Source: Candidatus Pelagisphaera phototrophica
Lineage (GTDB): Bacteria; Verrucomicrobiota; Verrucomicrobiia; Opitutales; Opitutaceae
Assembly (NCBI RefSeq): GCF_014529625.1
Contig: NZ_CP076039.1
Span: forward strand, 2,232,001-2,296,000
Direction of reading: 5' to 3'
Length of the DNA: 64,000 bases
Both the position numbers and the translations under genes were made by a program. This document shows, in pieces, positions 6,039 through 42,067 of this stretch (within the stretch, counting starts at the first letter, position 1; every line of letters starts with the position of its first letter). The notes under the pieces were generated by a model, which worked only from the letters and a program-made list of their open reading frames with translations, was not told the DNA's origin and searched no databases.

Positions 6039-7262
6039 TTAGTTGATTTCAGTTTTCAGGATTTTAATAGACTCCTTCGATTCCCGCTCTACCCGCATTC
6101 CCATTACGGCGTACTCCAATGGAGTAATGCAAATGCGGTCTCCGTCTTCGAGTCCCGCTGTAATAATCGCCCATTCCGTATCCGTTTGGTAGACTTCCAC
6201 GTCTTTGAAAACGATTCGACTCTCCCGATCGACAGTGTATACCGTATTATTCTCCCGCAGAGCTTTTCTGGGGATTTGAAATGCATTATCGATGCGTTTT
6301 CCTTGAATCGACGCTTCGACGAAAAGTCCGACTTTGAGTGGGGGGCGATCGCTGCTTTCGTTTTTTTTATACGGCTCCTCTATTTTGGCTACGACATAAG
6401 AGAGGCGGGTTTTGGGATCAATGGCTCCCTCTGTCCGATCTATCACGCCTTCCCACTCATATTGTTCCCCTCCATAGGATCCTCTCACGATGACCCTTGG
6501 TTTTGTGTCGTTGGCTGAGCGATTGCTGTAGGATTCAGGAAGTTCGAGGTATTCGATATCCTTTAGGGAGATGGGTAGTCGAATTTCCGCAGTATCCGTA
6601 GAGTAAATACGCGCCAACTGGCTTTGCCTTGCCGAGACCATTTGGCCGATGTCCGCGAATTTTTCATGAATACGACCATCGTAGGGCGCTTTCACCGTCG
6701 TTCGTTCAAGATCACGCTTCGCCATTTCCACACCTGCTAAAGCTGACTCGTAGACCGCCTTCGCGCGCTCTAGCTGCGGTTTGCGAAGGGTTAGATCAGA
6801 GCCTTCCCCACGTCCGAAACTTTCCCAGTCCTCTCGCGCTTGATCGGCGAGTGCCTTTTCCTGCTCATAGGCCAATCTCGCCTCAGCCAACCGGCTTTTG
6901 GATAAGGCCAAATTGGCTCGATAATCTACGGGGTCAATTTCAATAAGGGGATCACCTTTCTTGAAATATCCTCCAGCGAAAAAGGAATTGGAAATTGACT
7001 GAATGCGCCCTGTGACTTCTGCAACGAGTAAGGTTTCCGTCCGAGATTCCACGATACCCTGGCTTCGGGCCTCAAGTGTTATCGGTTTGGATCTTGCCTC
7101 AATTATTTCTACCACAGGAAGCACTTGAATGGTCTCCTTCTTCTCGGGTACCGGTTTAAAGACAAATGCGGTTACAATTATCCCAAACGAGGCAAAAATG
7201 AAGAAGATCGGCAGCACGTATTTTACCAATCTTAAAAGTAGCGATTCTTTTTTATCCGACAT
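6039..7262 (-). CDS. RND efflux periplasmic adaptor (membrane fusion protein)
   Basis: HlyD/AcrA-type periplasmic adaptor of 407 residues. A single N-terminal membrane helix (LPIFFIFASFGIIVTAF) anchors it. The lipoyl half-motifs appear as IVESRTETLLVAEVTGRI and VKAPYDGRIHEKFADIG, flanking a coiled-coil hairpin rich in Ala, Glu and Arg (about residues 115-185). The beta-barrel and membrane-proximal domains follow, ending with AIITAGLEDGDRI. It bridges the RND pump 11 bp downstream and the outer-membrane factor 47 bp upstream. Its start is the only ATG that leaves the complete anchor helix. Confidence 0.93.
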   Translation of the reverse strand: MSDKKESLLLRLVKYVLPIFFIFASFGIIVTAFVFKPVPEKKETIQVLPVVEIIEARSKPITLEARSQGIVESRTETLLVAEVTGRIQSISNSFFAGGYFKKGDPLIEIDPVDYRANLALSKSRLAEARLAYEQEKALADQAREDWESFGRGEGSDLTLRKPQLERAKAVYESALAGVEMAKRDLERTTVKAPYDGRIHEKFADIGQMVSARQSQLARIYSTDTAEIRLPISLKDIEYLELPESYSNRSANDTKPRVIVRGSYGGEQYEWEGVIDRTEGAIDPKTRLSYVVAKIEEPYKKNESSDRPPLKVGLFVEASIQGKRIDNAFQIPRKALRENNTVYTVDRESRIVFKDVEVYQTDTEWAIITAGLEDGDRICITPLEYAVMGMRVERESKESIKILKTEIN

Positions 7263-7309
7263 GACTGAAATCTGTTAAGTTAGCGGTGGGGATTAACGTT
7301 TGAATCCGA

Positions 7310-8695
7310 TTATTCAAAATCGCCTCCCAATGCGAGATGCAGATTGATGCGATTTTGAAGGCGTTGATTTTGTATGGAAATGAGTTGGCTGGTGCTTTCG
7401 TCCGCCCTCCGTTGGGCATCCAAAAGGGTGGTGATGTCTACGAGGCCTTTGTCATACTGCTCCCAAGCAAGATCCTCGGCTTTTTGATTTTCATCAGCGG
7501 CTATGGCGGATTCCTCTCTCAATAGCGAAAGGTCAATTTCGCTAGAAAGCGCATTCTCGACCTCCTGAAAGGCTGTCAAGACAGTGGAGCGGTATTGGGC
7601 TAGCTGAGACTCCGCTTGCGCTTGAGATTGGACACGTTCGGACTTTAGACGACCTGCAGCGAACAGGTTGGCCGCAAGATCCCCAGCGATCGACCAAACC
7701 GAGAAATCAGAATCTAGCAAATTAGTTAATTCACTGCTTGTGGTACCAGAGCTCCCAGTTAGCGCGAGCCTAGGTAGCCAATTTTTGGCTACGTTATTCT
7801 GCTGAGCGAGTATTGCCGCCAGACGTCGTTCCGCCGCGTACAGGTCAGGACGCCTTGCTACTAATTCTGCCTGCAGGCCTCCAGGGACATCGCTGTTTAG
7901 TGAAGGTAGCGAGTGGCTGCTGTCCTGGGTTGCAGAGGGATATCGGCCGAGAAGCACTTCCAGGGATCGCTTGGCGTTATTCAGTTGTGTTTTTCGTTGC
8001 TGTATCAGCGCACGACTGGAGGCGGCTTGGGCCCGCGTCAGCCTGAGATCTAAACTCGTCACTAAACCGCGATCGTATCTTCGATCAAGCGACGCTAGCT
8101 TTTGTTCAAGCGATTCTGAGGAGTCAATCGCGAGCTGCCATTGGCGCTGGGCTTCGAGCATATTGAACCAAGAGCGAGCCACCTGGCCGGCAATTGATAG
8201 CTTGAGAGCCCTTACATCTGCTTCCGCTGCTTCAAAATTAGCCAATCCCGAAGCGTGGGTATCTTTTAGGCGACCCCAGACATCGACCTCCCATTGGCTT
8301 CTCAGGTTAAGGGCGTGTGATTCCGTTTCAATTCTTTGAAAATTGAGGAACGAAAATCGACTTTTCTGGTTGGAGGAATTGAGTCCCAATGAAAGACTTG
8401 GGATTCTGAGTGAGCCAGCAATTCTTGCTGCAGCCTCCGCGGCTCTCGCTTGGGCTTCTGCGGCATCAAGACCAAAATTGACGTCCAGCGCTTCAGCTAT
8501 GAGTTGATTCAAGGTTTCGTCTCCGAATCGACCGGCCCATTTTATCGACTCTCTGGACTCAAGAGGCTTTGACGCGAGAAACTCATCATAATCTTTAGGG
8601 CTGGCTACCGATTGTGGTTCCATAGGTGCCGTCGCACATCCGGAAATGAAAAGCGTAAAGAAGGCGAAATGTAGCCAATTTGTATTTCTGGTCAT
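7310..8695 (-). CDS. RND efflux outer-membrane factor lipoprotein (NodT/OprM type)
   Basis: TolC-like outer-membrane channel, 461 residues. The signal peptide ends in the lipobox FISGC, so the mature protein is probably lipid-anchored as in OprM. Two homologous OEP repeats are seen: one with the NFEAAEADVRALKLSIAGQV region, the other with QAQAESQLAQYRSTVLTAFQ. The pattern GLVTSLDLRLTRAQ in the first half and GLVDITTLLDAQR in the second is characteristic of the family. It lies four bases after the TetR-type regulator and upstream of the adaptor, completing a tripartite exporter. Confidence 0.93.
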   Translation of the reverse strand: MTRNTNWLHFAFFTLFISGCATAPMEPQSVASPKDYDEFLASKPLESRESIKWAGRFGDETLNQLIAEALDVNFGLDAAEAQARAAEAAARIAGSLRIPSLSLGLNSSNQKSRFSFLNFQRIETESHALNLRSQWEVDVWGRLKDTHASGLANFEAAEADVRALKLSIAGQVARSWFNMLEAQRQWQLAIDSSESLEQKLASLDRRYDRGLVTSLDLRLTRAQAASSRALIQQRKTQLNNAKRSLEVLLGRYPSATQDSSHSLPSLNSDVPGGLQAELVARRPDLYAAERRLAAILAQQNNVAKNWLPRLALTGSSGTTSSELTNLLDSDFSVWSIAGDLAANLFAAGRLKSERVQSQAQAESQLAQYRSTVLTAFQEVENALSSEIDLSLLREESAIAADENQKAEDLAWEQYDKGLVDITTLLDAQRRADESTSQLISIQNQRLQNRINLHLALGGDFE

Positions 8696-8699
8696 TGTA

Positions 8700-9344
8700 T
8701 CAAGTCTTTGGACTCAGCTTTGAAACCGCCTCGAGCCCCGAGCTAATAAAAGCTACGAGATGGTCAGCTAAGCCATCCGTGTCGTGCAGATCGATTTTGC
8801 CACAGGAAATAAATTGGAGTCGCGAATGCTGCATCATGACCCCTAGCATACAGCAGGAAAGAAAGTGCATGCCATAGGAAATCTTCTCAAAGCCTGGGTG
8901 GCCGAGGGAATCGGAAATTGCTTTCGAAAATTTCGCAACGATTTCCTTTAATATATCCTGATGCAGTTCTTTCATGAAAGGGCGTTCTTCCGACATCGCT
9001 TTTCCCATAGCTCGCATGAAGCGGAAATCAGTCCCGGGCTCGCCTATAAACTGGGAAAGTAGTGGACGAACCATAAAGTCGACCACTTTCTGGATCGGAA
9101 GCGGTTTTGAATCATTCTCAATAGTTGCCTTTTCGAGCATATCGATTCGCAGATGATTTATCGGCTCGATACGATGACGTACCATTTCTTTGAAAAGGAC
9201 CTCTTTGGTACCAAAATGGTAGTTGATCGCGGCGATATTGACACCGGCACGTTTGGTAATCTCTCGAATCGAAGCCCCTCCGTACCCCCGCTCAGCAAAT
9301 TCAATTTCGGCCGCTTCGATGATTTTTACCTGCGTATCGTTCAT
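8700..9344 (-). CDS. TetR/AcrR-family regulator (CecR/YbiH-like)
   Basis: Transcription regulator of 214 residues from the ATG at 9344. The N-terminal helix-turn-helix has the family pattern (IIEAAEIEFAERGYGGASI, then AGVNIAAINYHFGTKEVLF). The larger C-terminal ligand domain, with a helix around MRAMGKAMSEERPFMKEL, resembles the CecR (YbiH, DUF1956) group. In Escherichia coli and relatives CecR-type genes often head efflux operons, as here: the stop codon is four bases before the outer-membrane factor gene. A 5-residue longer frame begins at a TTG (9359), but that start overlaps a palindrome that looks like its operator, so the ATG is preferred. Autorepression is inferred. Confidence 0.9.
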   Translation of the reverse strand: MNDTQVKIIEAAEIEFAERGYGGASIREITKRAGVNIAAINYHFGTKEVLFKEMVRHRIEPINHLRIDMLEKATIENDSKPLPIQKVVDFMVRPLLSQFIGEPGTDFRFMRAMGKAMSEERPFMKELHQDILKEIVAKFSKAISDSLGHPGFEKISYGMHFLSCCMLGVMMQHSRLQFISCGKIDLHDTDGLADHLVAFISSGLEAVSKLSPKT

Positions 9345-9355
9345 TGGGAAAACTT

Positions 9356-9384
9356 TCAAACAATCGTTTTAAACGGTGGTTTGA
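9356..9384. promoter_or_regulatory. candidate operator: 29-bp inverted repeat upstream of the tetR-type gene
   Basis: The arms 9356-9369 (TCAAACAATCGTTT) and 9371-9384 match as an inverted repeat at 12 of 14 positions around a single central base. It lies 12 bp upstream of the regulator ATG, the expected place for an autoregulatory TetR-family operator controlling the whole efflux operon. Binding is inferred, not shown. Confidence 0.55.
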
Positions 9385-9568
9385 ATTAGGGCAAGGAAAT
9401 TTTTTAACTTCTTGAACTCGGATAAGAACTTAGGGACATAGGGATAATTCTCATTGGGCGGTTGCAAAATATTCCGATCGAGCCCTTAAACCAAAATAGG
9501 CATGGGAGGAATGCATTTTCCGCGACTCAGGAAAAGGGCTTTTAATTTTTGTCAAACCGGGTACTGAA

Positions 9569-10222
9569 CTACGAATTCTGGTCTAGAAGTACGGGTTTAA
9601 GACTATCGAGCAAGTGCTTGGCTATCCATCTATGGCCCTCTGGATTTGGATGTATCCCGTCTCTTTGATTTAGTCGGGGATCCCCACCGACTCCTTCTAA
9701 TAAAAACGGTATTAGGGTTGCCCCCAAAGTTTCCGCAACGGAAGGGTACAGCTTTTCAAACTCATCGGTATAGCTCACCCCTAAGTTCGGAGGCATTTTC
9801 ATGCCGGCGATCACAATGTGGACGTCAGGATACCTTTCCCTCACGCGGCTGGCGATAGCGATCAAATTGGCCCTTGTGGTGGAAAGATCGATTCCTCTGA
9901 GTCCGTCATTTGCTCCCAGTGCCAAGACAAATACGTCTATCGGATTTCTCAATATCCAGTCAATTCGTCTAAGGCCACCCGCGGTCGTCTCTCCACTTAC
10001 ACCGGAAGGTATGACTTCCCATTTCAAATTCTGCTCACTTAGCAAAGACTGGAGAACCTTTGGATAGGATTGATCATAGTCTACGCCATAACCGGCCGTA
10101 AGGCTGTCCCCGAAGAATAGAATCGCTCGTTCGTTGCTTTCGTCCGAGCCCCGTAATTGGCTTTCTGTAGAGCAAAACAGGCTGAACGCCAAAACCAATA
10201 GGGCGATATTTCTAAGCAACAT
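9569..10222 (-). CDS. tesA: SGNH/GDSL arylesterase, TesA-like
   Basis: Secreted or periplasmic esterase/lysophospholipase of the SGNH hydrolase family, 217 residues from the ATG at 10222. A signal peptide (MLLRNIALLVLAFSLFCS) is followed by the four family blocks: block I FFGDSLTAGYG with the catalytic Ser, block II Gly (PSGVSGETTAGGL), block III GANDG, and block V DGIHPNPEGH with the catalytic Asp and His. An upstream ATG at 10297 would bury the signal peptide and overlaps the divergent gene, so it was not chosen. It is divergent from the ybbA/ybbP-type pair, the same arrangement as tesA-ybbAP in Escherichia coli. Confidence 0.9.
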   Translation of the reverse strand: MLLRNIALLVLAFSLFCSTESQLRGSDESNERAILFFGDSLTAGYGVDYDQSYPKVLQSLLSEQNLKWEVIPSGVSGETTAGGLRRIDWILRNPIDVFVLALGANDGLRGIDLSTTRANLIAIASRVRERYPDVHIVIAGMKMPPNLGVSYTDEFEKLYPSVAETLGATLIPFLLEGVGGDPRLNQRDGIHPNPEGHRWIAKHLLDSLKPVLLDQNS

Positions 10223-10400
10223 ATTTGTAGATACATGTGATTGAGCATAATGTTTCAAGTGTTGATCGGAAATAGATTTGTGCTCTTGTGTTCTCAAATC
10301 CAGACAACAAGAGTTTAGTATTTATACGCATCGCTTGGAACTGGCTGTTCGTAATCAGGCCGTAGAATTGTTTTCGTTGAGTGGATTTTGGAAAAAGGTT

Positions 10401-11081
10401 ATGTCTGGAGCGGTCATTTTGAGTTTAGATAAAGTGAGCAAGTCTTTCGCTAGTGGCGATCGGCTACTCGAAGTTCTTAAAGAATCTAGCCTGGAGGCTC
10501 GCCTGGGAGAGTCCATCGCTATCGTTGGTCCATCGGGAAGTGGTAAAACAACCCTGCTCGGGATCTGCGCGGGACTGGATTCGCCCACCAAAGGCGAGGT
10601 CAGCCTAAACGGGGAATCTTTGAGCACACTGACTGAAGACCAGCGGTCAGATATCAGAAATCATTACGTGGGATTTGTTTTCCAGAATTTCCAGTTGCTG
10701 CCAACTTTGACGGCACTGGAAAACGTGATGGTGCCGCTCGAGCTCCGAGGCGAAACAGGAGTCGAGTCCGCGGCCATTGAGATGCTGGAGAAAGTGGGTC
10801 TTGGCGAAAGGGTTCATCACTATCCAGTCCAGCTTTCAGGGGGGGAGCAGCAGCGCGTGGCATTGGCACGAGCCTTTATCAATCGCCCCAAAATACTGTT
10901 CGCAGATGAGCCAACGGGTAATTTGGATGCGGATACCAGTCATTCGATAGTCGATTTGCTATTTCAACTGAATCGGGATGCCGGTACGACGCTGATTTTG
11001 GTTACCCATGATCGGGAGCTAGCGGAGAAGACCGATCGAACCCTTCGTATCGAGCTGGGAAGGGTTACGGTAGAGCGATGA
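10401..11081 (+). CDS. ybbA: ABC transporter ATP-binding protein (YbbA/LolD type)
   Basis: ATPase of a MacB/LolCDE-type exporter, 226 residues from the ATG at 10401. Walker A is GPSGSGKTT, the Q-loop is [17 protein letters not shown], the signature is [14 protein letters not shown], Walker B is [12 protein letters not shown] and the switch His is in LVTHD. The frame is open upstream to 10278, but those residues do not belong to the family. The stop codon overlaps the start of the permease by four bases, so translation is coupled. By position and partner it is the YbbA equivalent. Confidence 0.92.
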
Positions 11082-13645
11082 GCGATTTGAGGAGGAGTTC
11101 GAAAAAGCTCAAACCACAACTTAATTGGGTGCTCAAAATGGCATGGCGCGATACGCGTCGCTCCAGAGGGAAGTTAGCTCTGTTTGCCTTTTCCGTTATA
11201 TTTGGGGTTGCGGCACTGGTGGCGGTGAACTCGCTACGTAGCAATTTAGAAGCTGAAGTCGATCGGCAATCTAAGGCCCTTCTCGGTTCTGACTTGGAAT
11301 TCAGAAGCTCAGAGCCCTTTGACGATAAGGCAGAAGAACTCTTTAGTTCCCTAAACGCTTCGGGCGAAGCCATCGATACGCGCCTTTCGACGATGGCGTT
11401 GTTTATCGAGTTAGACCAGACCCGTCTGGTTTCATTGCGAGCTATGTCAGGGGGATTTCCTTGGTATGGTACACTTGATACGCGGCCTGAGGGATTGAAT
11501 TTCTCCGAGATGGAAGGCAAAGTTGCCTTGGTAGAAGAATCATTAAAAATTCAATACGGACTGGAGATCGGAGATACTATACGCATCGGGGATGCGGAAT
11601 TTGAGGTAATTGGCGAAGTGCTGAGAATTCCAGGGGAATCCTCCTTTGGCAGTTCGTTTTCACCTCGCATCCTGATCCCGCAGATTCATCTGGAATCAAC
11701 GAATTTGCTAGGTTTCGGAAGCCGAAAGACCTTTCGGAAGCATTTCGTGTTTGAGAACGGTCTGAGTGAAGATTTAATAAAGACTCTGCGATCCAAGGAG
11801 CCCGAGATTCGTTCCAGTGGCCTGCGTTTTGATACGGCCGAAGAGCAGAAAGGAAGCATCGGTAACATGCTGGATGAAATGACCAGCTACTTGAGCTTGG
11901 TCGGGTTTGTCGCTCTTCTTCTTGGTGGCGTTGGAATTGCAGGAGCAGTTCAAGTGTATCTGAAGGAAAAATCCGAGTCAATGGCTGTGCTAAGGTGCCT
12001 TGGCTGTAGCGGGCAGACCAGTATGATGGTTTTTTGCATACAAATTTTTCTAATGGGTTTTGTCGGTTGTCTTTTGGGAGCGATTTTGGGGGTCGGCGTT
12101 CAGGCGGCGTTGCCAAGGATCGTTCAGTCTTTCGTTCCATTCGATTTGGAGTTCGAGATTGTATGGCCAAGCTTAGCAGAGGCATTCGCCTTTGCTTGGG
12201 CTTTAACATTGCTGTTCGCCTTCCTTCCTCTACTTCCAATGCGAAAGCTTTCCCCGATGCGGGCGATTCGATCGTCTTTGGGAGTACAAAAGGGCCGGAG
12301 TGACTGGCTGGTATGGCTAGCTTCGGGACTGATTGGTATCCTTACTCTGACATTTTCGATTTTGCAAACTGACGAAGTCACTGAAGCACTGGGTGTTTTC
12401 GGAGGAATCGTTGTCGCAATACTAGTGCTCACGGCCACGGGCATCGGTCTTAGAGGGCTGTTGAGAAGGTTGTCTTCTAGAACGTTACCCTTTGTATGGC
12501 GACAAGGTTTGAGCAACCTCTACCGCCCTAACAATCGTACCGTTTCGTTAATAGTGATGATCGGTATGGGTGCCTTCCTCATCTACACGCTGTACCTCTG
12601 TGAGGTGAGTATTTTGAAGAGGGGTGAAATCAATGACCAGGACGATAAGCCTAATACGGTCTTCTTTGACGTTCAGAGCGACCAAGTCGATCGGGTAAAG
12701 CAAATTATCCAGGAAAACGGGAGCGAGTTGAAGTTTCATGATCCCATGGTGACGATGCGGCTGACCCATATTAGTTCAACGTCTGTCTCTCAACTCCGTC
12801 GAAACCCCGGTTATGAAAGGTGGGCTTTGTCCCGCGAGTACCGATCCACTTTTAGAGCAGAACTTCGAGAGCACGAACCGCTTGTTGAGGGGGAATTCGT
12901 GTCAGCTTCGAGTCTGGATAGCGATGATCCCATTCCTATTTCAATAGAAGAGAGACTGGTTGAGGCACTGAGTCTGAAGATCGGTGACACGCTTTCCTGG
13001 GATGTGCAAGGGCTGCCCTTGGACACGATCGTTACCAGTATTAGAAAAGTCGACTGGAGGCAAATGCAGCCTAATTTCTTCGTTGTCTTTCCGAGTGGTG
13101 TCCTTGAGGGAGCCCCCGCAAATCACATCATCGCAGTCAAGGCGAACGGTGTGGAACGAATTGCCGCCCTGCAAGGGGACGTGGTCAAGCGATATCCCAA
13201 TGTATCCGCAATTAACTTATCAATGGTGCTGGAAACGCTTAAAGACGTATTTGACAAAGTAGGGTTCGTCGTTCGCTTCATGGCATCATTTACGATTCTA
13301 ACGGGGCTGATCGCACTCATTGCAACGGTCCTTACGAGTCGGTATCAGCGAGTAAAGGAAAGCGTTCTCCTCCGTTCGCTTGGCGCGAGTATTGGACAAG
13401 TTCGTAGAATTATGGCGATTGAATATTTTCTACTGGGCGGATTGGGAAGTGCCACCGGCATTACCTTGTCACTCGCCGGCGCCTGGGCCATGACACAATT
13501 TGTTTTCAAGATCGATCTCTACATTCCTTGGGGAATGACGATCGGGTCGATCATAGGGATCGGCGTCATTACCTTGCTAACTGGCATGCTAAACAGTCTG
13601 GGAATCGCCAATCGATCGCCCATTGAAGCACTGCGATACGATTAA
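11078..13645 (+). CDS. ybbP: ABC transporter permease of the FtsX/YbbP family
   Basis: Large permease of 855 residues with FtsX-like domains. A first helix (LALFAFSVIFGVAALVAV) near residue 32 is followed by a long extracytoplasmic domain. Groups of helices then lie around residues 270-400 (LVGFVALLLGGVGIAGA; FLMGFVGCLLGAILGVG), 410-460 and 490-510, and near the C-terminus (FTILTGLIALIATVLTS; ITLSLAGAWAMTQFV). Length and double FtsX organisation match YbbP rather than LolC/E (about 400 residues). It pairs with the ATPase through a 4-bp overlap. YbbAP-type systems are thought to work with TesA on hydrophobic compounds in the envelope; the substrate is not known. Confidence 0.9.
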   Translation: MSDLRRSSKKLKPQLNWVLKMAWRDTRRSRGKLALFAFSVIFGVAALVAVNSLRSNLEAEVDRQSKALLGSDLEFRSSEPFDDKAEELFSSLNASGEAIDTRLSTMALFIELDQTRLVSLRAMSGGFPWYGTLDTRPEGLNFSEMEGKVALVEESLKIQYGLEIGDTIRIGDAEFEVIGEVLRIPGESSFGSSFSPRILIPQIHLESTNLLGFGSRKTFRKHFVFENGLSEDLIKTLRSKEPEIRSSGLRFDTAEEQKGSIGNMLDEMTSYLSLVGFVALLLGGVGIAGAVQVYLKEKSESMAVLRCLGCSGQTSMMVFCIQIFLMGFVGCLLGAILGVGVQAALPRIVQSFVPFDLEFEIVWPSLAEAFAFAWALTLLFAFLPLLPMRKLSPMRAIRSSLGVQKGRSDWLVWLASGLIGILTLTFSILQTDEVTEALGVFGGIVVAILVLTATGIGLRGLLRRLSSRTLPFVWRQGLSNLYRPNNRTVSLIVMIGMGAFLIYTLYLCEVSILKRGEINDQDDKPNTVFFDVQSDQVDRVKQIIQENGSELKFHDPMVTMRLTHISSTSVSQLRRNPGYERWALSREYRSTFRAELREHEPLVEGEFVSASSLDSDDPIPISIEERLVEALSLKIGDTLSWDVQGLPLDTIVTSIRKVDWRQMQPNFFVVFPSGVLEGAPANHIIAVKANGVERIAALQGDVVKRYPNVSAINLSMVLETLKDVFDKVGFVVRFMASFTILTGLIALIATVLTSRYQRVKESVLLRSLGASIGQVRRIMAIEYFLLGGLGSATGITLSLAGAWAMTQFVFKIDLYIPWGMTIGSIIGIGVITLLTGMLNSLGIANRSPIEALRYD

Positions 13646-32988: not shown

Positions 32989-34074
32989 ATGAACGCCAAA
33001 GCCACCCTCATCACAATAATAAGCTTAGTCGGGACGATCTACGGAGCTCAGACCTTGGACTGGGAAAACTATGATCCCCCTTCGACCCTAGTTGTCCCTG
33101 AGAACCCAATTGATCGCGCGAAATTTCCGTTTATCGATGTCCATAGTCACCAGTATCGTATGGGACCTTCCGACCTGGCAGACCGTATCGTGGAAATGGA
33201 TGCCATGAATATGGAAATCATGGTTAACCTCAGCGGACGCGGCGGATCGCAGTTGAAAGCGATGGCTAGCAATGTGGAAAAGGCATTCCCGAAGCGATTT
33301 GCCATTTTTACCAACCTGAACTTCAACGGTGTTGACCGTTCGAATTGGGCTAGGAATGCAGTTGCCCAACTCGAGGAAGATGTGAAAAATGGGGCCAAGG
33401 GGCTAAAGGTTTACAAGGGTCTTGGTCTTTCCAATAAGGATATTGATGGTAAACGAGTCGCTGTCGATGATCCACGCCTGGATCCTGTTTGGCAAAAGTG
33501 TGGCGAGTTGGGAATCCCCGTGATTATCCACTCGGCGGATCCGCAGCCGTTCTGGGAGCCGCATGACAATCAAAATGAACGTTGGCTAGAGCTAAAAATC
33601 CATTCTCGCCGCAAGCGTTCGGACACGAATCCCGCTCCTTGGGAGCAGATCATCGCAGAGCAGCACAACATGTTCCGGAAACACCCCGACACCAATTTCA
33701 TAGCCGCCCATATGAGTTGGTTGGCCAACGATCTGGGTCGCCTGAGCGAGATACTTGACGAGATCCCAAATATGCATGTTGGCATTGGAGCCATTATTGC
33801 CGAGCTCGGCCGACAACCCCGAATGGCGAATCGGTTTTTCGAAAAACACCAGGACCGCGTTCTGTTCGGAAAGGACTCCTACAGACCCGAGGAGTTCCCC
33901 ACCTATTTCCGCGTCCTAGAGAGCAACGACGAATACTTTCCTTACTATAAACGCTACCACGCATTTTGGCGCATGTACGGACTCAACCTTCCCGATGATA
34001 TCCTGAAAAAACTCTATTACAAAAACGCGTTGCGCATCATTCCCGGCCTTGACGCTTCGCTTTTTCCCAATTAA
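32989..34074 (+). CDS. secreted amidohydrolase_2-type metal-dependent hydrolase
   Basis: TIM-barrel hydrolase or decarboxylase of the amidohydrolase 2 family, 361 residues from the ATG at 32989. A signal peptide (MNAKATLITIISLVGTIYGA) is followed by FIDVHSHQYRMG with the His-x-His metal ligands, IPVIIHSADP with the third His, FIAAHMSWLAND, and VLFGKDSYRPEE with the catalytic Asp. The end (DDILKKLYYKNALRII) is the family terminal helix around the conserved Asn-Ala. Export is unusual for the family in general but common in this phylum. No operon partner; divergent from the DUF1549/DUF1553 gene. Substrate unknown, perhaps a lactone or small aromatic acid. Confidence 0.88.
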   Translation: MNAKATLITIISLVGTIYGAQTLDWENYDPPSTLVVPENPIDRAKFPFIDVHSHQYRMGPSDLADRIVEMDAMNMEIMVNLSGRGGSQLKAMASNVEKAFPKRFAIFTNLNFNGVDRSNWARNAVAQLEEDVKNGAKGLKVYKGLGLSNKDIDGKRVAVDDPRLDPVWQKCGELGIPVIIHSADPQPFWEPHDNQNERWLELKIHSRRKRSDTNPAPWEQIIAEQHNMFRKHPDTNFIAAHMSWLANDLGRLSEILDEIPNMHVGIGAIIAELGRQPRMANRFFEKHQDRVLFGKDSYRPEEFPTYFRVLESNDEYFPYYKRYHAFWRMYGLNLPDDILKKLYYKNALRIIPGLDASLFPN

Positions 34075-34160
34075 TTCCCTTTACTCATCTAGGGACGCTT
34101 TATCTAACTAATTTCTCTCTGCCCAAGCATGTATCTAATCACCAATAGTACTTTGTCCTC

Positions 34161-34535
34161 TTAAACGTAGTCTCCAACCCGTTACGGTATGAAAATAATA
34201 TTCAACACTTCCGAGGTATAATTGGACAGCGTACCTTCAAAGGCTAAACTAATGACAAGACCAGCCGCACCGTGAATCGGTACAGAGGAGGTCGTTTGGA
34301 TGCCTACTTTGCTGAGAGCCACGAAAGCCACTAGTGCTGCGTGAATCAGCGATCCGTCGGATTCGACGAGCGAAGGCTCAACTTTACGCATCTCCAATCC
34401 TCGCCGCACCGCGTTGGAGATCGTCTTGGCAATCCAGTTTCCAAAAATCAGAATTGTAATCGCGAAGAGGATCTTAGGGCCGAAAAGTACAGCCTGTTCC
34501 GTTAATGTCTGCCAAAACGCTTCAAAATTAATCAT
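34161..34535 (-). pseudogene. truncated MscS-type mechanosensitive channel
   Basis: The N-terminal membrane part of a small-conductance mechanosensitive channel is present: FGPKILFAITILIFGNWIAK (TM1 region), LIHAALVAFVALSKVGIQTTS (TM2) and the pore helix GAAGLVISLAFEGTLSNYTSEVLNIIF (TM3). The frame then meets TAA at 34182 exactly where the family reads RPF, and in the same frame the next codons are RVGDYV followed by another stop, the expected beta-domain start. The rest of the soluble vestibule domain is absent. The gene is therefore dead or makes only a 117-residue membrane piece. TM3 keeps most of the Gly/Ala packing residues, so the loss is recent. Confidence 0.85.
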
Positions 34536-34704
34536 GAGTTTGGTGCCGAGATTTTCATCTTCGACATCTAAACCAGTTTAATATTTTTCGTAAAAGATCG
34601 CTCCTTTCGGATCGTAAACAGTGGGTTTTAGTCACAAATATTTGAAAGAATATTCCATATTTTTATCCGAGCTCAGATCTCAATAATTGGCTTAGCGCCC
34701 TAGC

Positions 34705-36216
34705 CTACTGCGCCCAATCTGGAAATGCCCCAATCGGATCTCCTGTGACCAAAGGGAAAAACACATACACGGCAATTATCGTGAAAGCGATGGCCACAAA
34801 ATTGAGAAGCAATCCCGTGCGAGCCATTTCGGAAATACGGATCCGCTGACTCCCAAACACTACAGCATTGGGCGGCGTTGCCACCGGCATCATGAATGCC
34901 ATCGATGCCGAGATCGTCGCAGGAATCATGAACAAGAGAGGATGCATTTGCAGACTGACCGCCCAGGAAGCCAGTATGGGGAGCAGCATCGAAAGCGTCG
35001 CCACATTCGAAGTGAGCTCTGTCAAGAAAGTCACGCCGAGACAGATCACGAGGATCAAAAGCAACGAAGGAAATTCGCCCAAAGAGCGGAAACCTTCCCC
35101 GATGTATTCCGATAACCCGCTCGCTCCAAATCCAGCTGCCAGAGCAAAGCCTCCTCCGAAAAGCAATATGATACCCCAAGGCAGCTTGCCAAAAACATCC
35201 GCTTCCAAAATCCGCACTGGATTTTCTCCTTCCCGAGCAGGAAGAAAAAACAGCAGCATACTCATAGCGATGGCGATCGTGCCATCATCAATTCCCGCAA
35301 ATCCGCTCCACAAATCAGACCACCCGGGCAAAGACACAAATCCAAGCTCAAGCTTCCGACGGAACGTCCAGAGGAACACCGTCGTCATAAATACGCTGAG
35401 GACCATCTTTTCTCCCTTCCCCAACGGACCCAGCGATTTCAGCTCCTCGCGAACATGGGACTTGTCCAATGACAAGGACTTGTCGAACTTGCATAGGACT
35501 TTGGTTAACAAAAACCAAGTCACCAATATAAGAGTAATCGAGTACGGGATACCAATGATGACCCACTGCCCGAATGCAATTGGCGAAGCCTCTGGAAAGG
35601 CCTCGCTAAAGATACGCACGAAGGCCAAATTAGTTGGCGTTCCCACGAGTGTAGCGACGCCCCCGATCGAGCATCCGTAGGCGATTCCCAGCATCAAAAC
35701 AAGCGAGATCGAATGAGCCTTTTCTTTGCCAAACTCTTCTTCCATTTTCAAGATGATCGCTAAGCCAATCGGAAGCATCATTACGGCTGTAGCTGTATTT
35801 GAAATCCACATAGACAGAAACGCGGATGCAATCATGAACCCAAGCACCAGCATATCCGCTTTCTTCCCCACTGCGTTGATGATGTTAAGGGCAATGCGGC
35901 GATGCAAATTCCAACGCTCCATCGATAGGGCAATCAGGAATCCTCCAATGAAGAGAAACGTGATAGAGTTCACATAGCTCGTCGAAGTGGAACCCGCATC
36001 AATGATCCCAGTCAGTGGAAAGGCTACAAGGGGTATTAGTGCTGTCGCGGCCAAGGGAATCGCTTCCGTAATCCATAAGATAGCCATGAACGCGGCGATC
36101 GCAGCCATCTTGCCAACCGCAGGCTGTTCTGGCACGGGATTATAGAACAGTAGCATAGCTACGAATACAGCAATCCCCATTGAGAAGCCTATTTTTTTCC
36201 ACGGTTGCAAGGTCAT
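34705..36216 (-). CDS. SLC13/DASS-family sodium:anion symporter
   Basis: Membrane transporter of the divalent anion:Na+ symporter family, 503 residues from the ATG at 36216 (a TTG four codons earlier is less likely). Twelve or so hydrophobic helices are visible. Diagnostic motifs: AILWITEAIPLAATALIP near the start, the first Ser-Asn-Thr motif MWISNTATAVMMLP, CSIGGVATLVGTPTNL, the second motif ELTSNVATLSMLLPIL, and PVATPPNAVVFGS at the end. Family members carry dicarboxylates, citrate or sulfate. Its position 43 bp after two secreted proteins of unknown function on the same strand suggests it takes up an anion they release or bind; this is inference. Confidence 0.92.
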   Translation of the reverse strand: MTLQPWKKIGFSMGIAVFVAMLLFYNPVPEQPAVGKMAAIAAFMAILWITEAIPLAATALIPLVAFPLTGIIDAGSTSTSYVNSITFLFIGGFLIALSMERWNLHRRIALNIINAVGKKADMLVLGFMIASAFLSMWISNTATAVMMLPIGLAIILKMEEEFGKEKAHSISLVLMLGIAYGCSIGGVATLVGTPTNLAFVRIFSEAFPEASPIAFGQWVIIGIPYSITLILVTWFLLTKVLCKFDKSLSLDKSHVREELKSLGPLGKGEKMVLSVFMTTVFLWTFRRKLELGFVSLPGWSDLWSGFAGIDDGTIAIAMSMLLFFLPAREGENPVRILEADVFGKLPWGIILLFGGGFALAAGFGASGLSEYIGEGFRSLGEFPSLLLILVICLGVTFLTELTSNVATLSMLLPILASWAVSLQMHPLLFMIPATISASMAFMMPVATPPNAVVFGSQRIRISEMARTGLLLNFVAIAFTIIAVYVFFPLVTGDPIGAFPDWAQ

Positions 36217-36259
36217 ATGGTTCAACAACCTCGCTCCGAGGCCCGATTTAAATCTGCTA

Positions 36260-37558
36260 TCATAGGTGGCTATTCAACTTTTCCCAGTATTGCAACACCC
36301 CTTCAGCCTGAGCTTTCAGGGCGGCCTTTATATAGGTTTCAGCAGGAACGCCGCTAACCTCTTCGATCGCCTGCTCAACCAAAGCTCGACCAGACTCCTT
36401 TTTCTTTAGGGCGACCAATTTACTTCTCAGGTTTTCACCGAACGCATATCCATACCTCAGGTACATATCCAACATAGCGAATCTCGCACCTTCCGAATTG
36501 TTGAAACTGAAACGGACTCGGACAGGCCCTTTTTTTAATGACTGGGAGCGATCCTCTCCCTCAAGCCAATTGAGAGGATCCATGTCTACCGTAACCATAT
36601 CATTGAGAAAGTTGCATATTGCCGCATCGAACCATTCGCGGTCGATAACGCGATAGCTCCTGTTTTTCATGTGGTTAACCAAAGAGGAAGAAAACTTCGT
36701 CCGAAATCGCGTATTGCGACGTGCAGCCCAAGAGAAAGGATCGTAAAGATAGCTGAGGTTTCTGACGATTTGCCGCTGAATTCGGGTGATTTGCTCTTCG
36801 GAGTCTTCAGTACGCGAAACGATAATGGGATAGGAAACCTTTACCTCTCGAAAGGCATTTACATACACGCTATTAGGCAATGTGTCGCTGATGTGGAACC
36901 CCTTGTTTGTATCGAGATTCAACCCTTGCCACTTGTTGACGATTTTAACGTTCCTTTTATTCCGGATTGCCACCTCCCATTCCGTGAGGACTCTTCTTTC
37001 CCACGTGAGCGAATCCGGATTAAAACGCAAGTTCTGAGCGCGCCTATTTCCCCTTAGAGCTCTCTCCGAGAGCCCCTCTTTTTCCCAAACGATGATCTCC
37101 TTAATCTGGAAAAACGGTTTCGCGCGTAGTCGGGCAAGGATGGTCCTTTCCTTTCGCAGCCAACTTTCGTCATCTAGTTCAAACCCCTTGATTCCGAATG
37201 TATCCGCCAATACGGTCAACTTCCTTCCGTGAGCAACCCCTTGTGTCATCTGGAAGGCCATGTGCTTCGCCTCGAGCTCTAGAAGCCGGTTATGAAGTCC
37301 ACCCATGATTTTTGGGAAACTCGTATGTATTGCCTTAACCACCGCGTTGTCACTGTGATAGTTTTTTCCAGTGAACCCGTCGATCACAGCGATGTTGCCG
37401 CCGTATTTTACATAAGCGTCGAGCTCGACCAGAAATTGGCCATCATCGCCAACGCCCGCCTCAGAAAGGGCAGACTGTGACCAGCCGGCGTCCATCAGGA
37501 AGAACAGCGAAAGCGTGGCCGAGGCCACTTGAACCGTCCTGCCAAAAAAATGCGTCAT
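36260..37558 (-). CDS. secreted protein of unknown family, paralogue B
   Basis: No recognised domain. 432 residues with a signal peptide (VASATLSLFFLMDAGWSQS). It is a clear paralogue of the gene immediately upstream (3-bp gap). Shared blocks: YVKYGGNIAVIDGFTGKNYH, SDNAVVKAIH-x-SFP-x-IMGGLH, FFQIKEIIVWEKE, WERRVLTEW, LQGLNL-type (here WQGLNLDTNKGFHI), SYPIIVSR, NLSYLYDPFSWAARRNTRFR, WFDAAICNFLND, and a C-terminal AMLDMYLRYG helix region with PAETYIKAALKAQAEG. The pattern is mainly helical with many aromatic and basic residues. It has no cysteine pattern, protease or glycosidase motif that can be seen. Compared with paralogue A it lacks two inserts. Function unknown. Confidence 0.8.
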   Translation of the reverse strand: MTHFFGRTVQVASATLSLFFLMDAGWSQSALSEAGVGDDGQFLVELDAYVKYGGNIAVIDGFTGKNYHSDNAVVKAIHTSFPKIMGGLHNRLLELEAKHMAFQMTQGVAHGRKLTVLADTFGIKGFELDDESWLRKERTILARLRAKPFFQIKEIIVWEKEGLSERALRGNRRAQNLRFNPDSLTWERRVLTEWEVAIRNKRNVKIVNKWQGLNLDTNKGFHISDTLPNSVYVNAFREVKVSYPIIVSRTEDSEEQITRIQRQIVRNLSYLYDPFSWAARRNTRFRTKFSSSLVNHMKNRSYRVIDREWFDAAICNFLNDMVTVDMDPLNWLEGEDRSQSLKKGPVRVRFSFNNSEGARFAMLDMYLRYGYAFGENLRSKLVALKKKESGRALVEQAIEEVSGVPAETYIKAALKAQAEGVLQYWEKLNSHL

Positions 37559-37561
37559 CGG

Positions 37562-38971
37562 CTAGAAATTCATTTTTTCGCGAAATTGCTCCAGTCCAGC
37601 TTTCTGGGCCTTGATGGCTGCCGGGATATACTTTTCCGCCGGAACATTGCTTACTTCGGCGATGACCTTTTGTATTAATTCCTTGCCGTCTTCCCTCTTT
37701 TTCAAGCTCGTTAACTTTTCTCGAAGCGCATCAATAAATTTGTCTCCGTATCTCAAATACGCGTCTAACATGACAAATCGGGCTCCGCCAGGCCTATCGA
37801 AATTCAGCCAGATTCTGCGATCTCGGTTAACACTTTCGCCCTTCCGGTTTTCGCCTTCGTGCCAATTGAGAAGATCTAGATCTTTGCCTAATACGTTTTT
37901 GGAGTTAGCGAATTGCTGGGTCAGGTAAAGATCGTAGACTTCTTTGAAACCGTATCGCTTCACCGTGACTACGTCATTGAGGAAGTGGCAAATAACCGGA
38001 TCGAACCAATCGCGATCTTTAACCCGATACTTCCTCTCCTTGAAATAATTGATCAGTTCCGATGAGAAGGCGGTCCGGAATCGAGTCGATCTCCGAGCCA
38101 CCCACGTAAATGGATCATACAAGTGGCTGAGGTTCTCGACGATTTGCTTCTGCAATCGTTCGATTTGCTCCTCAGCGTTTTCTTTTCTGGATACGATCAT
38201 CGGGTAAGAAACAGTCACTTCACTGAAGTCTCCTGGCTGAACGTACTGACCAAGCCCTCTGCCCCCGACCATAATGTGGAACCCCTTGTTCGTCTCCAAG
38301 TTTAAGCCCTGAAGCTTTTCGACCATTTGGACATTAGTGTTCAACTGACCGTTATTCCATCTTGTAACCTGGACGGTGTTTACATTCCATTCGGTCAAAA
38401 CTCGCCGCTCCCAAGACTGAGTGTCCGGATTGAATTGAATGTTCTTGGCCCACTTGTTGTCCGGCAGTTCCTCGTCGAGGTATTCCTTTTCCCAGACGAC
38501 CAATTCCGTAATCTGAAAGAAGGGCTCTTTATCCAGCCTCTGCAGAATCGCTTTTTCTCTCACCATCCATCGTGATCGGTCCATTGAGAATCGTGTAATC
38601 CCAAAGGATTCTGCCAAGGCGGCAAGCTCTCGATCGTGCTGAACGCCTTGAGAAAGGTAGAAATTCATGTAACGGGCCTCCAGTTCAAGAAGCTTTACAT
38701 GGAGCCCACCCATGATTTGGGGAAAGCTGGAATGGATCGCCTTAACAACCGCATTGTCTGAATGGTAGGCTTGGCCTGTCAGACCATCGATCACATCGAT
38801 ATCGCCGCCGTATTTCACGTAGGTATCCAAGGTAATAAAAAACTCGGGATCTTCGGAAATTCTGGACCCAGATAAGGCGGATTGGGCTTCGATGACAGGC
38901 GGACTAATTGAAAGTAGAACTGCGGTCGCGCTAGCGAACCCAATTGCAACACTAAATCGGCTATTTTTCAT
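37562..38971 (-). CDS. secreted protein of unknown family, paralogue A
   Basis: No recognised domain. 469 residues with a signal peptide (FSVAIGFASATAVLLSISPPV) and mature start near IEAQSALSG. It shares ordered conserved blocks with the next gene (YVKYGGDIDVIDGLTGQAYH; HSSFPQIMGGLHVKLLELEA; FFQITELVVWEKE; WERRVLTEWNVN; LQGLNLETNKGFHIM; NLSHLYDPFTWVARRSTRFR; WFDPVICHFLNDVVTV; FVMLDAYLRYGDKF). It has two extra segments, about residues 200-215 (rich in Asn/Gln) and 345-370 (KRYGFKEVYDLYL). It is the first gene of a likely three-gene operon: paralogue A, paralogue B, DASS transporter. A tandem duplication is evident; divergence is large, so it is old. Confidence 0.8.
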   Translation of the reverse strand: MKNSRFSVAIGFASATAVLLSISPPVIEAQSALSGSRISEDPEFFITLDTYVKYGGDIDVIDGLTGQAYHSDNAVVKAIHSSFPQIMGGLHVKLLELEARYMNFYLSQGVQHDRELAALAESFGITRFSMDRSRWMVREKAILQRLDKEPFFQITELVVWEKEYLDEELPDNKWAKNIQFNPDTQSWERRVLTEWNVNTVQVTRWNNGQLNTNVQMVEKLQGLNLETNKGFHIMVGGRGLGQYVQPGDFSEVTVSYPMIVSRKENAEEQIERLQKQIVENLSHLYDPFTWVARRSTRFRTAFSSELINYFKERKYRVKDRDWFDPVICHFLNDVVTVKRYGFKEVYDLYLTQQFANSKNVLGKDLDLLNWHEGENRKGESVNRDRRIWLNFDRPGGARFVMLDAYLRYGDKFIDALREKLTSLKKREDGKELIQKVIAEVSNVPAEKYIPAAIKAQKAGLEQFREKMNF

Positions 38972-39275
38972 AGAACTCAGATGGTAAATTTAGAGGTTAA
39001 ATGAGTTGGAAACCTAGATAGAAAAAAGGCGAACGCATTGATCCCTACCGAGCAAGCCAAATTTGGAGTGTCATAAAATTGCCTTGTCCGAACAGGTGCT
39101 AATTCCGCCATAAAACAGCCCGTTTACGTAATCTCGAAAGGGCCAGAGCAGCTTAGATTTCAATATTGTTAAAAACTGTAAAAGGTTCAAGATTCGTTAG
39201 TCAGTCTCTCTTTCGTTTCAAAACCGTATCCCAAGGTGCCATTCCAAAGGCTTCACCATAGGGGCCCAGAACGCC
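38972..39275. other. intergenic region, promoter side of the unknown pair
   Basis: A 304-bp spacer between the first unknown secreted gene and the stop of the next sulfatase, both on the minus strand. No gene, strong hairpin or repeat was found. It should contain the promoter of the unknown-pair operon. Confidence 0.5.
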
Positions 39276-40622
39276 CTATTTCTTCTGCCAAGGGATCTCT
39301 CCAGCTTCCTGAATATGAAGCATCAGTGCTGCTCCTAGTTCGGCAGTGATTTTTCGATCATCCACGGGCGTGGTTTCCAACGGGTCGTCATCCAAGTTGT
39401 ACAGCTCCATGGGAGCGAAGGACGTGCTCTGCTCGAGTTTCCACGGACCACGACGCACCGCATAATAGGCACGGCCTTGATAGCCAGTGGCCCCTCCTTC
39501 CCTTCTTACCCAGAACAAGGTGCGATCGTTCAAACCCGAATCATCTCCTTGCATCAGGAACGGTAAGAGTGACACCCCGTCGGTTTCATGTTTCACGGGG
39601 ATCCCTGCGAGATCGCAAAGCGTAGGATAGAAATCCATGGTTATGCCAATTGTATCCACTCTTCCGGCACGTATATGCCCAGGCCAGTTAACACAGGTAG
39701 GTACGCGAATGCCTCCTTCCCAGTGGTCTTGTTTGGCACCACGCAGTTTTCCGTTTGACTGGAAATAATTGGCAGCACCTCCATTGTCTGAGCTGAAGAC
39801 GATCAGAGTATTGTCCCTCAGCCCGCTGGCCTCGAGCCCATCCAGCACGCGACCAATGTGGTAATCAGTATGCTCGATGAAGGCCACGTTTTTGGCACGG
39901 CCTTCGGACAGTTCAGGCTTCTCCTTTTTCGTCCGCTCCAGCCAGTCATCGGGAGGCTGAATAGGGAAATGCGGCGCGTTATAGGGCAGATAGAGAAAGA
40001 AGGGGTCCTTTTTCCCTTTTCGGGATTCGAAGTATTCGATCGCCCAATCAGAGAACAATTCCGTCGCATGGCCCACAGGGTCGATTTCCTTGCGGTTGTA
40101 GCGCATCCAGTTCACGCCCCCTCGACGGTGATTGTAGTAGTCGTCCATCATATCGCCTAGGAATCCGTGAAAGAAATCAAAGCCTCGATCATTGGGGATG
40201 TTGGGAGACTCATAACCTAAGTGCCACTTCCCCACCATTGCGGTATGATAGCCCGCCTTCTTCAACATCTGCGGAAGGGTAATCGCGTTCGGATCCAAAT
40301 ACCCCCAGCTATTAGCGGCGTTTTGGCGAATGACTCCTGGAACGCCGACCTTATCGGGATAGCACCCTGTCATCAACGAAGCCCGAGTAGGCGAACACAC
40401 CGTGCAATTGGAGTAAAACTGATCGAACCGGAGGCTCTCTGCCATCAGGGCATCGATGCGGGGGGAGTCCAGATCCGTGGCGCCGTACGATGAAAGGTCT
40501 CCGTAGCCCAAATCGTCGAGGAGGATAAACAGCATATTGGGCTTATTAGCGGTTTGACCCATTGCGATTGAAGCCAAGATGAGACCAAGGAAGAGGGAAC
40601 CAATACTACGGGATATGCGCAT
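39276..40622 (-). CDS. secreted S1-family arylsulfatase
   Basis: Exported sulfatase of 448 residues from the ATG at 40622, which gives a clean signal peptide (IGSLFLGLILASIAMGQ); an ATG at 40706 adds an unlikely leader. Metal site LLDDLGYGDLSSYGA, formylglycine motif CSPTR with Cys at about residue 76, KWHLGY box, second metal site FSSDNGGAANYF, and the end with MELYNLDDDPLETTPV. It belongs to the common arylsulfatase A-like subgroup whose members act on sulfated sugars or aryl sulfates. It is divergent from the DUF1552 gene across about 150 bp. Confidence 0.92.
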   Translation of the reverse strand: MRISRSIGSLFLGLILASIAMGQTANKPNMLFILLDDLGYGDLSSYGATDLDSPRIDALMAESLRFDQFYSNCTVCSPTRASLMTGCYPDKVGVPGVIRQNAANSWGYLDPNAITLPQMLKKAGYHTAMVGKWHLGYESPNIPNDRGFDFFHGFLGDMMDDYYNHRRGGVNWMRYNRKEIDPVGHATELFSDWAIEYFESRKGKKDPFFLYLPYNAPHFPIQPPDDWLERTKKEKPELSEGRAKNVAFIEHTDYHIGRVLDGLEASGLRDNTLIVFSSDNGGAANYFQSNGKLRGAKQDHWEGGIRVPTCVNWPGHIRAGRVDTIGITMDFYPTLCDLAGIPVKHETDGVSLLPFLMQGDDSGLNDRTLFWVRREGGATGYQGRAYYAVRRGPWKLEQSTSFAPMELYNLDDDPLETTPVDDRKITAELGAALMLHIQEAGEIPWQKK

Positions 40623-40774
40623 GATCGTTAACCCTTTCCGACGCGCAACAGATGGCAAGACCATAAGAAGTGCGGAAAGTGTCCGAAATACTCGAGTATC
40701 TTGCAATATACAGTTAAAGGACTCAACTTGTCACGATTGAGGATTAGAACCCAAATTACACCACTTCGAGACTG

Positions 40775-42067
40775 ATGAACATCGCATTCTCAAAACACAT
40801 TTCCCGCCGCTCTTTCCTGAAAGGCGCAGGCGTCTGCCTCGCCCTTCCTTACCTGGAGGCAATGACACCCGCTTTCGCCATCGCCAAGAGCCCGCCGAAT
40901 CCCAAGAGGTTTGTCGCCGTCGGAAACTCGTTCGGGATGTACCAGCCCGCCTTTTTTCCCGAGACATTAGGGTCCAACTTCGATTTCCCCCAGCTTCTCA
41001 ACCCGCTCAAGCCCCTCAAGCAGGACTTCACGATATTCTCCGGACTCGATCACGGTCTGACAGGGGGACATTTCGGCGTGCATTCTTTCCTCTCAGGTGT
41101 TCTCAGCGTAGATGCGAAAAACATGCCTGATGGCAACATCAGCCTTGATCAGCGCATCGCAGAATCGCTGGGCCACGAGACGCGTTTTCCCTCGCTTACG
41201 GTGGGCTCGGAAAGCGGGCTTCACAATGGTTGCCAAATGTCGTGGACCCGATCAGGTGTTCGGGTTCCGCCGATCAGTGACCCAAGCAAACTTTTTGATA
41301 CTCTATTTGTGGAGGATTCCTCCGAAGGGAAACGTTCCGCTGCCAAACGGTCAGCCCTAAAGAAATCGATACTCGACTCCGTTCAAGATGACGCCAAGAG
41401 CCTCGCTCAACGGGTTGGCAATCGCGATCGCGAAAAACTGGACGAATACTTCACCGCGGTTCGTGACGCGGAACGAGCTGTCGTGCAAAACAGTCGCTGG
41501 ATCGACGTGCCCAAACCCACCGCGCCAATCGACCGACCGGATAACAATGGCATTGTGCAGGATCTGCCGACGCTCTACGATTTGATACTGCTAGCCCTAG
41601 AAACTGACTCCACCCGCATCGCAACACTTGAGATCTCAAGTGAAGGATTCGACACTTCTGCATTGGGAGTTTCGGGCGGCTACCATTCTATTTCCCACCA
41701 CGGAAAGCAGCCCGGCAAGATTCGAGACTTGATCACCCTTGAGCAGCATCAGACCGAACAGTTCGCCCGATTCCTGCAACAACTGGGATCTAAGCAGGAA
41801 TCCGATCATACCGAGTCATTGCTCAGCGACACCGTGGTCCTCTTTGGCTCCGGTATGGGCAACGCCAATTCCCATACGAACACCAATCTACCTATCATGG
41901 TAGCTGGGGGCGGATTCCGACATGGGCAGCATCTTTCGTTTCTGGATAAAGGGCGCCGAGGAGCTCCCTTATCAAACCTCTACCTTTCCATCTTGAACAG
42001 GCTGGGCATTGAGTCTGACTACTTTGCGACAAGCACCGGCACGCTTCGAGATTTTCAAAGTGTTTAG
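40775..42067 (+). CDS. DUF1552 protein (Tat-exported)
   Basis: Protein of the DUF1552 family, 430 residues, of unknown activity. The twin-arginine signal is ISRRSFLKGAGVCLALPYLEAM. Family blocks: RFVAVGNSFGMYQPAFFP, FTIFSGLDHGLTGGHFGVHSF, FPSLTVGSESG, then LDEYFTAVRDAE, and LFGSGMGNANSHTNTNLPIM near the C-terminus. The fold is thought to be related to DUF1501. It precedes the DUF1592-type gene by 22 bp on the same strand; this pairing recurs in Verrucomicrobia and Planctomycetes and mirrors the DUF1501/DUF1553 pair at 28-32 kb. Confidence 0.9.
   Translation: MNIAFSKHISRRSFLKGAGVCLALPYLEAMTPAFAIAKSPPNPKRFVAVGNSFGMYQPAFFPETLGSNFDFPQLLNPLKPLKQDFTIFSGLDHGLTGGHFGVHSFLSGVLSVDAKNMPDGNISLDQRIAESLGHETRFPSLTVGSESGLHNGCQMSWTRSGVRVPPISDPSKLFDTLFVEDSSEGKRSAAKRSALKKSILDSVQDDAKSLAQRVGNRDREKLDEYFTAVRDAERAVVQNSRWIDVPKPTAPIDRPDNNGIVQDLPTLYDLILLALETDSTRIATLEISSEGFDTSALGVSGGYHSISHHGKQPGKIRDLITLEQHQTEQFARFLQQLGSKQESDHTESLLSDTVVLFGSGMGNANSHTNTNLPIMVAGGGFRHGQHLSFLDKGRRGAPLSNLYLSILNRLGIESDYFATSTGTLRDFQSV

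Follow-up and report, generated by a model that had tools for sequence, protein, structure and literature searches.

Proteins A and B, encoded in tandem in Candidatus Pelagisphaera phototrophica, are paralogues in what is, judged from the databases and genomes searched here, an undescribed family of proteins that are roughly 450 residues long and probably exported. Our best explanation, which is tentative, is that they form a degenerate, likely non-catalytic gluzincin-like exported binding pair serving the use of sulfated glycans. Sulfatase genes adjoin the family more often than genes of the SLC13/DASS anion transporter family do. The DASS partnership in the window, the stretch of 64,000 nucleotides analysed here (positions 2,232,001 to 2,296,000 of contig NZ_CP076039.1), is local, and in the genus the DASS gene is a loosely linked neighbour in some genomes only.

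All genes of the locus lie on the minus strand. Protein A is encoded by an ORF of 469 aa at 37562–38971 and protein B by an ORF of 432 aa at 36260–37558, leaving a gap of 3 bp (37559–37561). The DASS gene follows at 34705–36216. Its ORF (34705–36228) opens with TTG at 36228, and ATG at 36216 is the likelier start because the N-termini in relatives read MTNLPWK and MTSIPWK; with this start, the gap between B and the DASS gene is 43 bp. The tandem arrangement and spacing reported in the first-pass annotation were confirmed as ORFs at these coordinates. A sulfatase gene (39276–40706; Pfam Sulfatase, 207.5 bits with a cut-off of 25) is located 305 bp upstream of A on the same strand. Beyond the DASS gene lies a truncated MscS channel gene (34182–34535), in which an in-frame stop cuts coding at 117 aa; no second half was found in 33801–34760. 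A full-length MscS gene (282 aa) stands after the DASS gene in L005 (10539–11387). Predicted promoters and terminators in 33900–40900 were about as frequent as in shuffles (9 against 7.3 and 9 against 7.8) and were not used as evidence.

A and B align with 52% identity (242/464 columns, E 6e-164), and on this alignment they are certainly paralogues, as had been claimed. By eye, both N-termini show a hydrophobic stretch followed by ...IEA/QS and ...GWS/QS, respectively, which suggests that both proteins are exported. No Pfam family matched A or B at E ≤ 1, and NCBIfam at E ≤ 10 gave no row for B and, for A, a single row at chance level (13.8 bits against a cut-off of 522). Searches of PDB sequences returned only chance rows with A alone as the query (E 0.78 and up) and no rows with a profile of 25 family members. 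A Pfam scan of these 25 members gave chance rows only, with no match to a peptidase family. A solute-binding domain was absent from A and B in Pfam and NCBIfam and from the Pfam families matched by the 25 members. Thus, the earlier statement that neither protein carries a recognised domain held, and by these comparisons the pair is real and without a name in the Pfam, NCBIfam, and PDB sequences searched.

The family has 63 columns conserved at 90% or more, and many of the conserved residues are charged or aromatic. A keeps 62 of the 63 columns and B keeps 58. Between orthologues, dN was 0.32 for A (L005) and 0.25–0.26 for B (L006 and L005), while synonymous change was saturated and not computable; together these are read as purifying selection on both genes. 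B is without a 26-residue segment, in-frame, that corresponds to A residues 338–363, and four of its conserved-column losses (G341, E344, Y346, and G362) fall inside this gap. A residue is present at the position of A341 in 48 of the 54 members; the others are B, the three members of a distant branch, an L006 gene that holds a run of N, and one fragment. B may be impaired or specialised. Neither this gap nor the sulfatase gene upstream of A had been noted in the first-pass annotation.

With A alone as the query, the family was found in 11 of 177 genomes of the order. A 25-row profile found it in 24 of 200 genomes at family rank, in 9 of the 11 genomes of the window's genus, in 3 of 335 genomes of the class sample, and in 4 of 288 genomes of the phylum sample, one of these being a weak row (G674, E 9e-4, 46 residues). 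The samples overlap, and each includes the window's own genome. Except for this weak row, the family was confined to the order Opitutales in the samples searched. A contig scan with one protein as the query, which reaches close relatives only, gave two loci, L005 from an Opitutaceae MAG (the same stretch as in G380) and L006 from an Opitutales MAG (the same stretch as in G615). In viral contigs, 28 stretches matched a search pattern and none was confirmed. The distant branch consists of three genes from another taxonomic family (L046 8803–10083, L047 9380–10699, and L048 2648–4039); a search with it for intermediates hit 3 of 365 genomes, namely two already known to hold the family and G398.

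In a midpoint-rooted tree of 49 members, from which L091, L044, L042, and the N-containing gene of L006 were left out, A and B fell into separate clades (bootstrap 92–100, SH-aLRT from 82). The A clade also holds L005 and L083, and the B clade also holds L005, L006, and L083. Since each clade contains other genomes of the genus, the A/B split is presumed to be older than these species. An A-type and a B-type gene occur together in four genomes of the genus (the window, L005, L006, and L083), the A-type gene of L006, which contains the run of N, being typed by similarity outside the tree. The first-pass annotation had proposed a two-component device. Its pairing of the two proteins stood to this extent, and a complementary pair is possible because the pair is kept in four genomes; its tie to the DASS transporter did not stand, as described below. 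The window's genome carries a third family copy elsewhere, of B-type in the tree, and no gene within the 20 kb around it was labelled as like the DASS or sulfatase gene of the window. L083 carries four tandem family copies (6353–11893; A, B, B, and A-like types) behind a sulfatase gene, with no DASS gene labelled on the rest of its 15.5 kb contig.

Within the genus, the best-kept neighbour of the family is the sulfatase gene (five genomes including the window, and the remnant locus of G828 described below). A sulfatase closely matching that of the window (805–832 bits) is encoded directly upstream of family genes in L005, L006, L083, and L089, and one to four family copies stand behind it in the genus loci. 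Neighbours were counted at 46 family loci, some of which are cut by contig ends. This count drops L085 and L109, which are the same stretches as L006 and L005, and L094, L107, and L110, which were earlier matches in which the ORF filter showed no family gene and no DASS gene was labelled. Also outside it are the G828 stretches L142 and L143 and those matches, chiefly fragments at contig ends, that lack wide flanks. A sulfatase gene of at least 250 aa lies within 500 bp at 12 of the 46 family loci; for the other genes of these loci the figure is 26 of 340 (Fisher p 0.0005). However, once the five syntenic genus loci and one sister-locus pair each enter the count a single time, p rises to 0.07, and the window's genome (G000, 4.09 Mb) is itself sulfatase-rich with at least 151 sulfatase matches, both of which weigh against our best explanation. 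Outside the genus, sulfatases lie within 500 bp at six family loci.

The idea of a degenerate gluzincin, with the helix named, was written down before the fold results were read. The structure of A was predicted with AlphaFold2 from a six-sequence alignment (window, L005, and L006), and the full-length model was poor (pLDDT 51.9, pTM 0.46). When the Foldseek candidates for this poor model were aligned in a second look (376 chains, 50 listed), gluzincin-type peptidases took each of the top 18 rows (Z 7.5 to 3.9, 162–189 residues aligned), with titles that give M1, M60, M4, M61, collagenase, and, once, a putative peptidase. The next row was unrelated (Z 3.9), and Z below 8 is common in such structure comparison. 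Labels that apply to rows of this comparison also include M9, M3, and gluzincin. Foldseek itself gave no rows at E ≤ 0.001 for the full-length model, the first gluzincin appearing at E 3.6. A domain-only model (pLDDT 58.5) likewise gave no Foldseek rows at E ≤ 0.001, and none of 993 chains reached Z ≥ 5 in the second look; three M1 rows (Z 4.4, 3.2, and 2.5) covered the tail only, and an unrelated chain also scored 4.4. The fold search on A proposed in the earlier note gave a divided answer, in which gluzincins lead one comparison based on a poor model and the domain-only model did not repeat it.

In a profile comparison with 42 Peptidase_MA_2 (PF13485) proteins chosen as showing the motif, the main family scored at chance level (15.0, below the 16.7 of the reversed profile). 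In its C-terminal tail the distant branch scored 28.6, at a stated probability of 8%; the best of 40 column shuffles was 19.5, the reversed profile gave 11.8, and the best of seven unrelated families gave 23.2. The distant branch also matched the main family (E 2e-13) over the N-terminal and sheet part. The argument for gluzincins by way of the distant branch is weak, because its match to the main family excludes the tail that matches Peptidase_MA_2. We place a gluzincin fold for the family somewhat below an even chance.

Gluzincins such as the M1 aminopeptidases and PF13485 proteins have the order of helix, sheet, and helices suggested by the poor full-length model of A. They carry HExxH and a downstream Glu ligand, whereas the family has neither HExxH in the candidate helix nor a conserved Glu. 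HExxH occurs in 2 of the 54 members, both times outside the candidate helix. The helix corresponding to A 266–285, itself a presumptive assignment, is represented in 53 members, and it lacks the motif in every one of them. At the candidate glutamate place, Glu stands at A300 in one of 52 members and at A301 in one of 52. At A283 in the candidate helix, 24 of 53 members have His and 22 have Tyr. Separately, the family proteins of L031 and L032 carry HEIQH and HEIGH at residue 87 in the long first helix; this place corresponds to A98, where Glu is nearly invariant (48 of 51).

In our best explanation, the fold would be that of a decayed gluzincin (M1/MA-like) metallopeptidase, comprising a helix, a small antiparallel sheet, two former site helices, and a helical tail. 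The former zinc helix would lie at about A 266–285 (consensus NLxHIYDPF), the former glutamate helix at about A 296–312 (TRFRGGF), and the tail would include GARFxxLDAYxRY. Since the zinc ligands would be gone, the family would most likely bind rather than cut, and the A-type and B-type copies would constitute a periplasmic or surface binding pair for the use of sulfated glycans. That these copies follow a sulfatase gene in the genus makes a sulfated-glycan binding pair their likeliest role. The family would then resemble the inactive metallopeptidase homologues, or pseudopeptidases, reviewed in PMC11266112, which have a metallopeptidase fold with lost zinc ligands and for which the part of that article used here gives roles in protein interaction, regulation, and scaffolding. 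The cases named in that part are mainly eukaryotic, and the present family is absent from them (PMC11266112). If the fold is true, in contrast to those mostly eukaryotic cases, a bacterial metallopeptidase-like family would have lost its zinc site, spread, and multiplied, with up to four tandem copies, in a sulfatase-rich lineage.

The many conserved charged residues count against this explanation in that they would also suit an enzyme. A and B may instead represent an undescribed enzyme family and be catalytically active, perhaps on glycans, sulfated or otherwise; the W-E-R-R, TRFR, D-R-x-W-F, and D-L-L-N-W motifs, all conserved, would then make up the catalytic site. We regard this as nearly as likely as our best explanation. 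It would fit the 63 highly conserved columns with their charged and aromatic residues, the export judged by eye, the sulfatases adjoining part of the family, and the low dN beside saturated synonymous change. However, no enzyme family matched significantly, a conserved segment is gone from the window's B, and the loci with a sulfatase within 500 bp outside the genus number six.

The loss of that segment from B also bears on another explanation, that A and B are dispensable paralogues specific to this lineage and now decaying, B being already broken by deletion. Elsewhere in the genus, the family copy of G571 is split in two frames, no full family copy was found in G398 and G555, and the site in G828 holds a remnant alone, though G828 has another family copy elsewhere. 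A stretch of G398 (C10:271755–271991; L177) may be a family relic with stops (E 0.0014). Decay is nevertheless unlikely, given that A keeps all but one of the highly conserved columns, both genes are open and constrained, and the A–B pair is kept in four genomes.

The third gene of the window was confirmed as SLC13/DASS, as annotated at first, by scores above the cut-offs of Pfam Na_sulph_symp (247.9 bits, cut-off 27) and NCBIfam dass (255.2 bits, cut-off 198.6) and by both SN[TV] motifs (SNT...SNV); VcINDY is a further member of this transporter group. The solved structures closest to it are SLC13A2, A5, A3, and A1 (303 to 281 bits; E 4e-89 to SLC13A2). The residues of the SNT and SNV motifs bind sodium and substrate. 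SLC13A2 and SLC13A5 have SNT and SNV, the same as the window's DASS, whereas SLC13A1, a sulfate carrier, has SNT and SNP. A di- or tricarboxylate is therefore likelier than sulfate, and is probably the substrate as judged from these motifs. We considered and rejected a scheme in which the sulfatase frees sulfate and the DASS carrier imports it, since the motif pair matches SLC13A2 and SLC13A5, not SLC13A1, and the linkage is not kept.

A DASS gene lies within 500 bp at 3 of the 46 family loci, and the order A–B–DASS occurs in the window, L005, and L006 only. In the genus, 8 of the 11 genomes have a DASS orthologue. It adjoins intact family genes in G000, G380, and G615 and a remnant in G828, where the window's gene order is kept with the sulfatase and DASS genes intact, and all that is left of A/B is a C-terminal remnant matching both proteins (L142). 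In G539, G571, G587, and G627, the DASS gene stands apart from family genes: these lie on other contigs in G539, G587, and G627, and about 677 kb away in the single-contig G571. In G539 and G627, its close neighbours are genes for a formyltransferase and a BacA-like protein (Pfam names for G627); in G571 and G587 the DASS gene is found in yet other places. G627 has four tandem family copies without a DASS gene beside them, and in G601, an 88% complete genome, the family is present and no DASS match was found. The first-pass annotation had proposed a secreted device tied to the DASS carrier and had itself set homologues mostly lacking a transporter neighbour against that proposal; this is what the loci show, and the tie was not borne out. 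Tight spacing to a transporter gene in one genome can be local, and several relatives have the two apart.

It is accordingly quite unlikely that A and B, whether as an exported pair of enzymes or of binding proteins, provide the DASS carrier with an anion. The gaps of 3 and 43 bp, the order common to L005 and L006, and the constraint on the DASS gene (dN 0.17, dS 2.4) would fit such a supply, as would another SLC13-like gene beside a family gene in L037 and L038, though convergent. Against it stand the 3 of 46 loci, the separation in four genus genomes, and the retention of the DASS gene after loss of A/B in a fifth; moreover, no SLC13 carrier is known to depend on a secreted partner. The gene in L037 (1884–4259) and L038 (6525–8900) encodes 791 aa and lies 13 bp from the family gene, with a DASS gene about 6 kb from it.

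The family shares with TonB-dependent receptors of these bacteria a TonB-box-like L-x-x-F-x-V segment just after the signal peptide (LEPFVI, LEAFVV), found in 18 of the 54 members. No member in the window's genus has the segment, the place reading LDTYVK, LDAYVK, or similar. We consider it highly improbable that the family members are exported pseudopeptidases that act as A–B heteromers and, linked to TonB, assist glycan import in the periplasm or at the outer membrane. The pattern, written after both sets had been seen and searched in stretches differing somewhat in length between sets, occurred in 8 of 30 TonB-dependent receptor loci (L178–L207). Among 276 other ORFs whose N-terminus is hydrophobic, 7 had it, and three of these look like receptors. 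The genes of the distant branch have ABC transporter permease genes as neighbours. In L046 the gene for malate synthase G comes next, and its relatives are found in L047 and, as a contig-end fragment, in L048.
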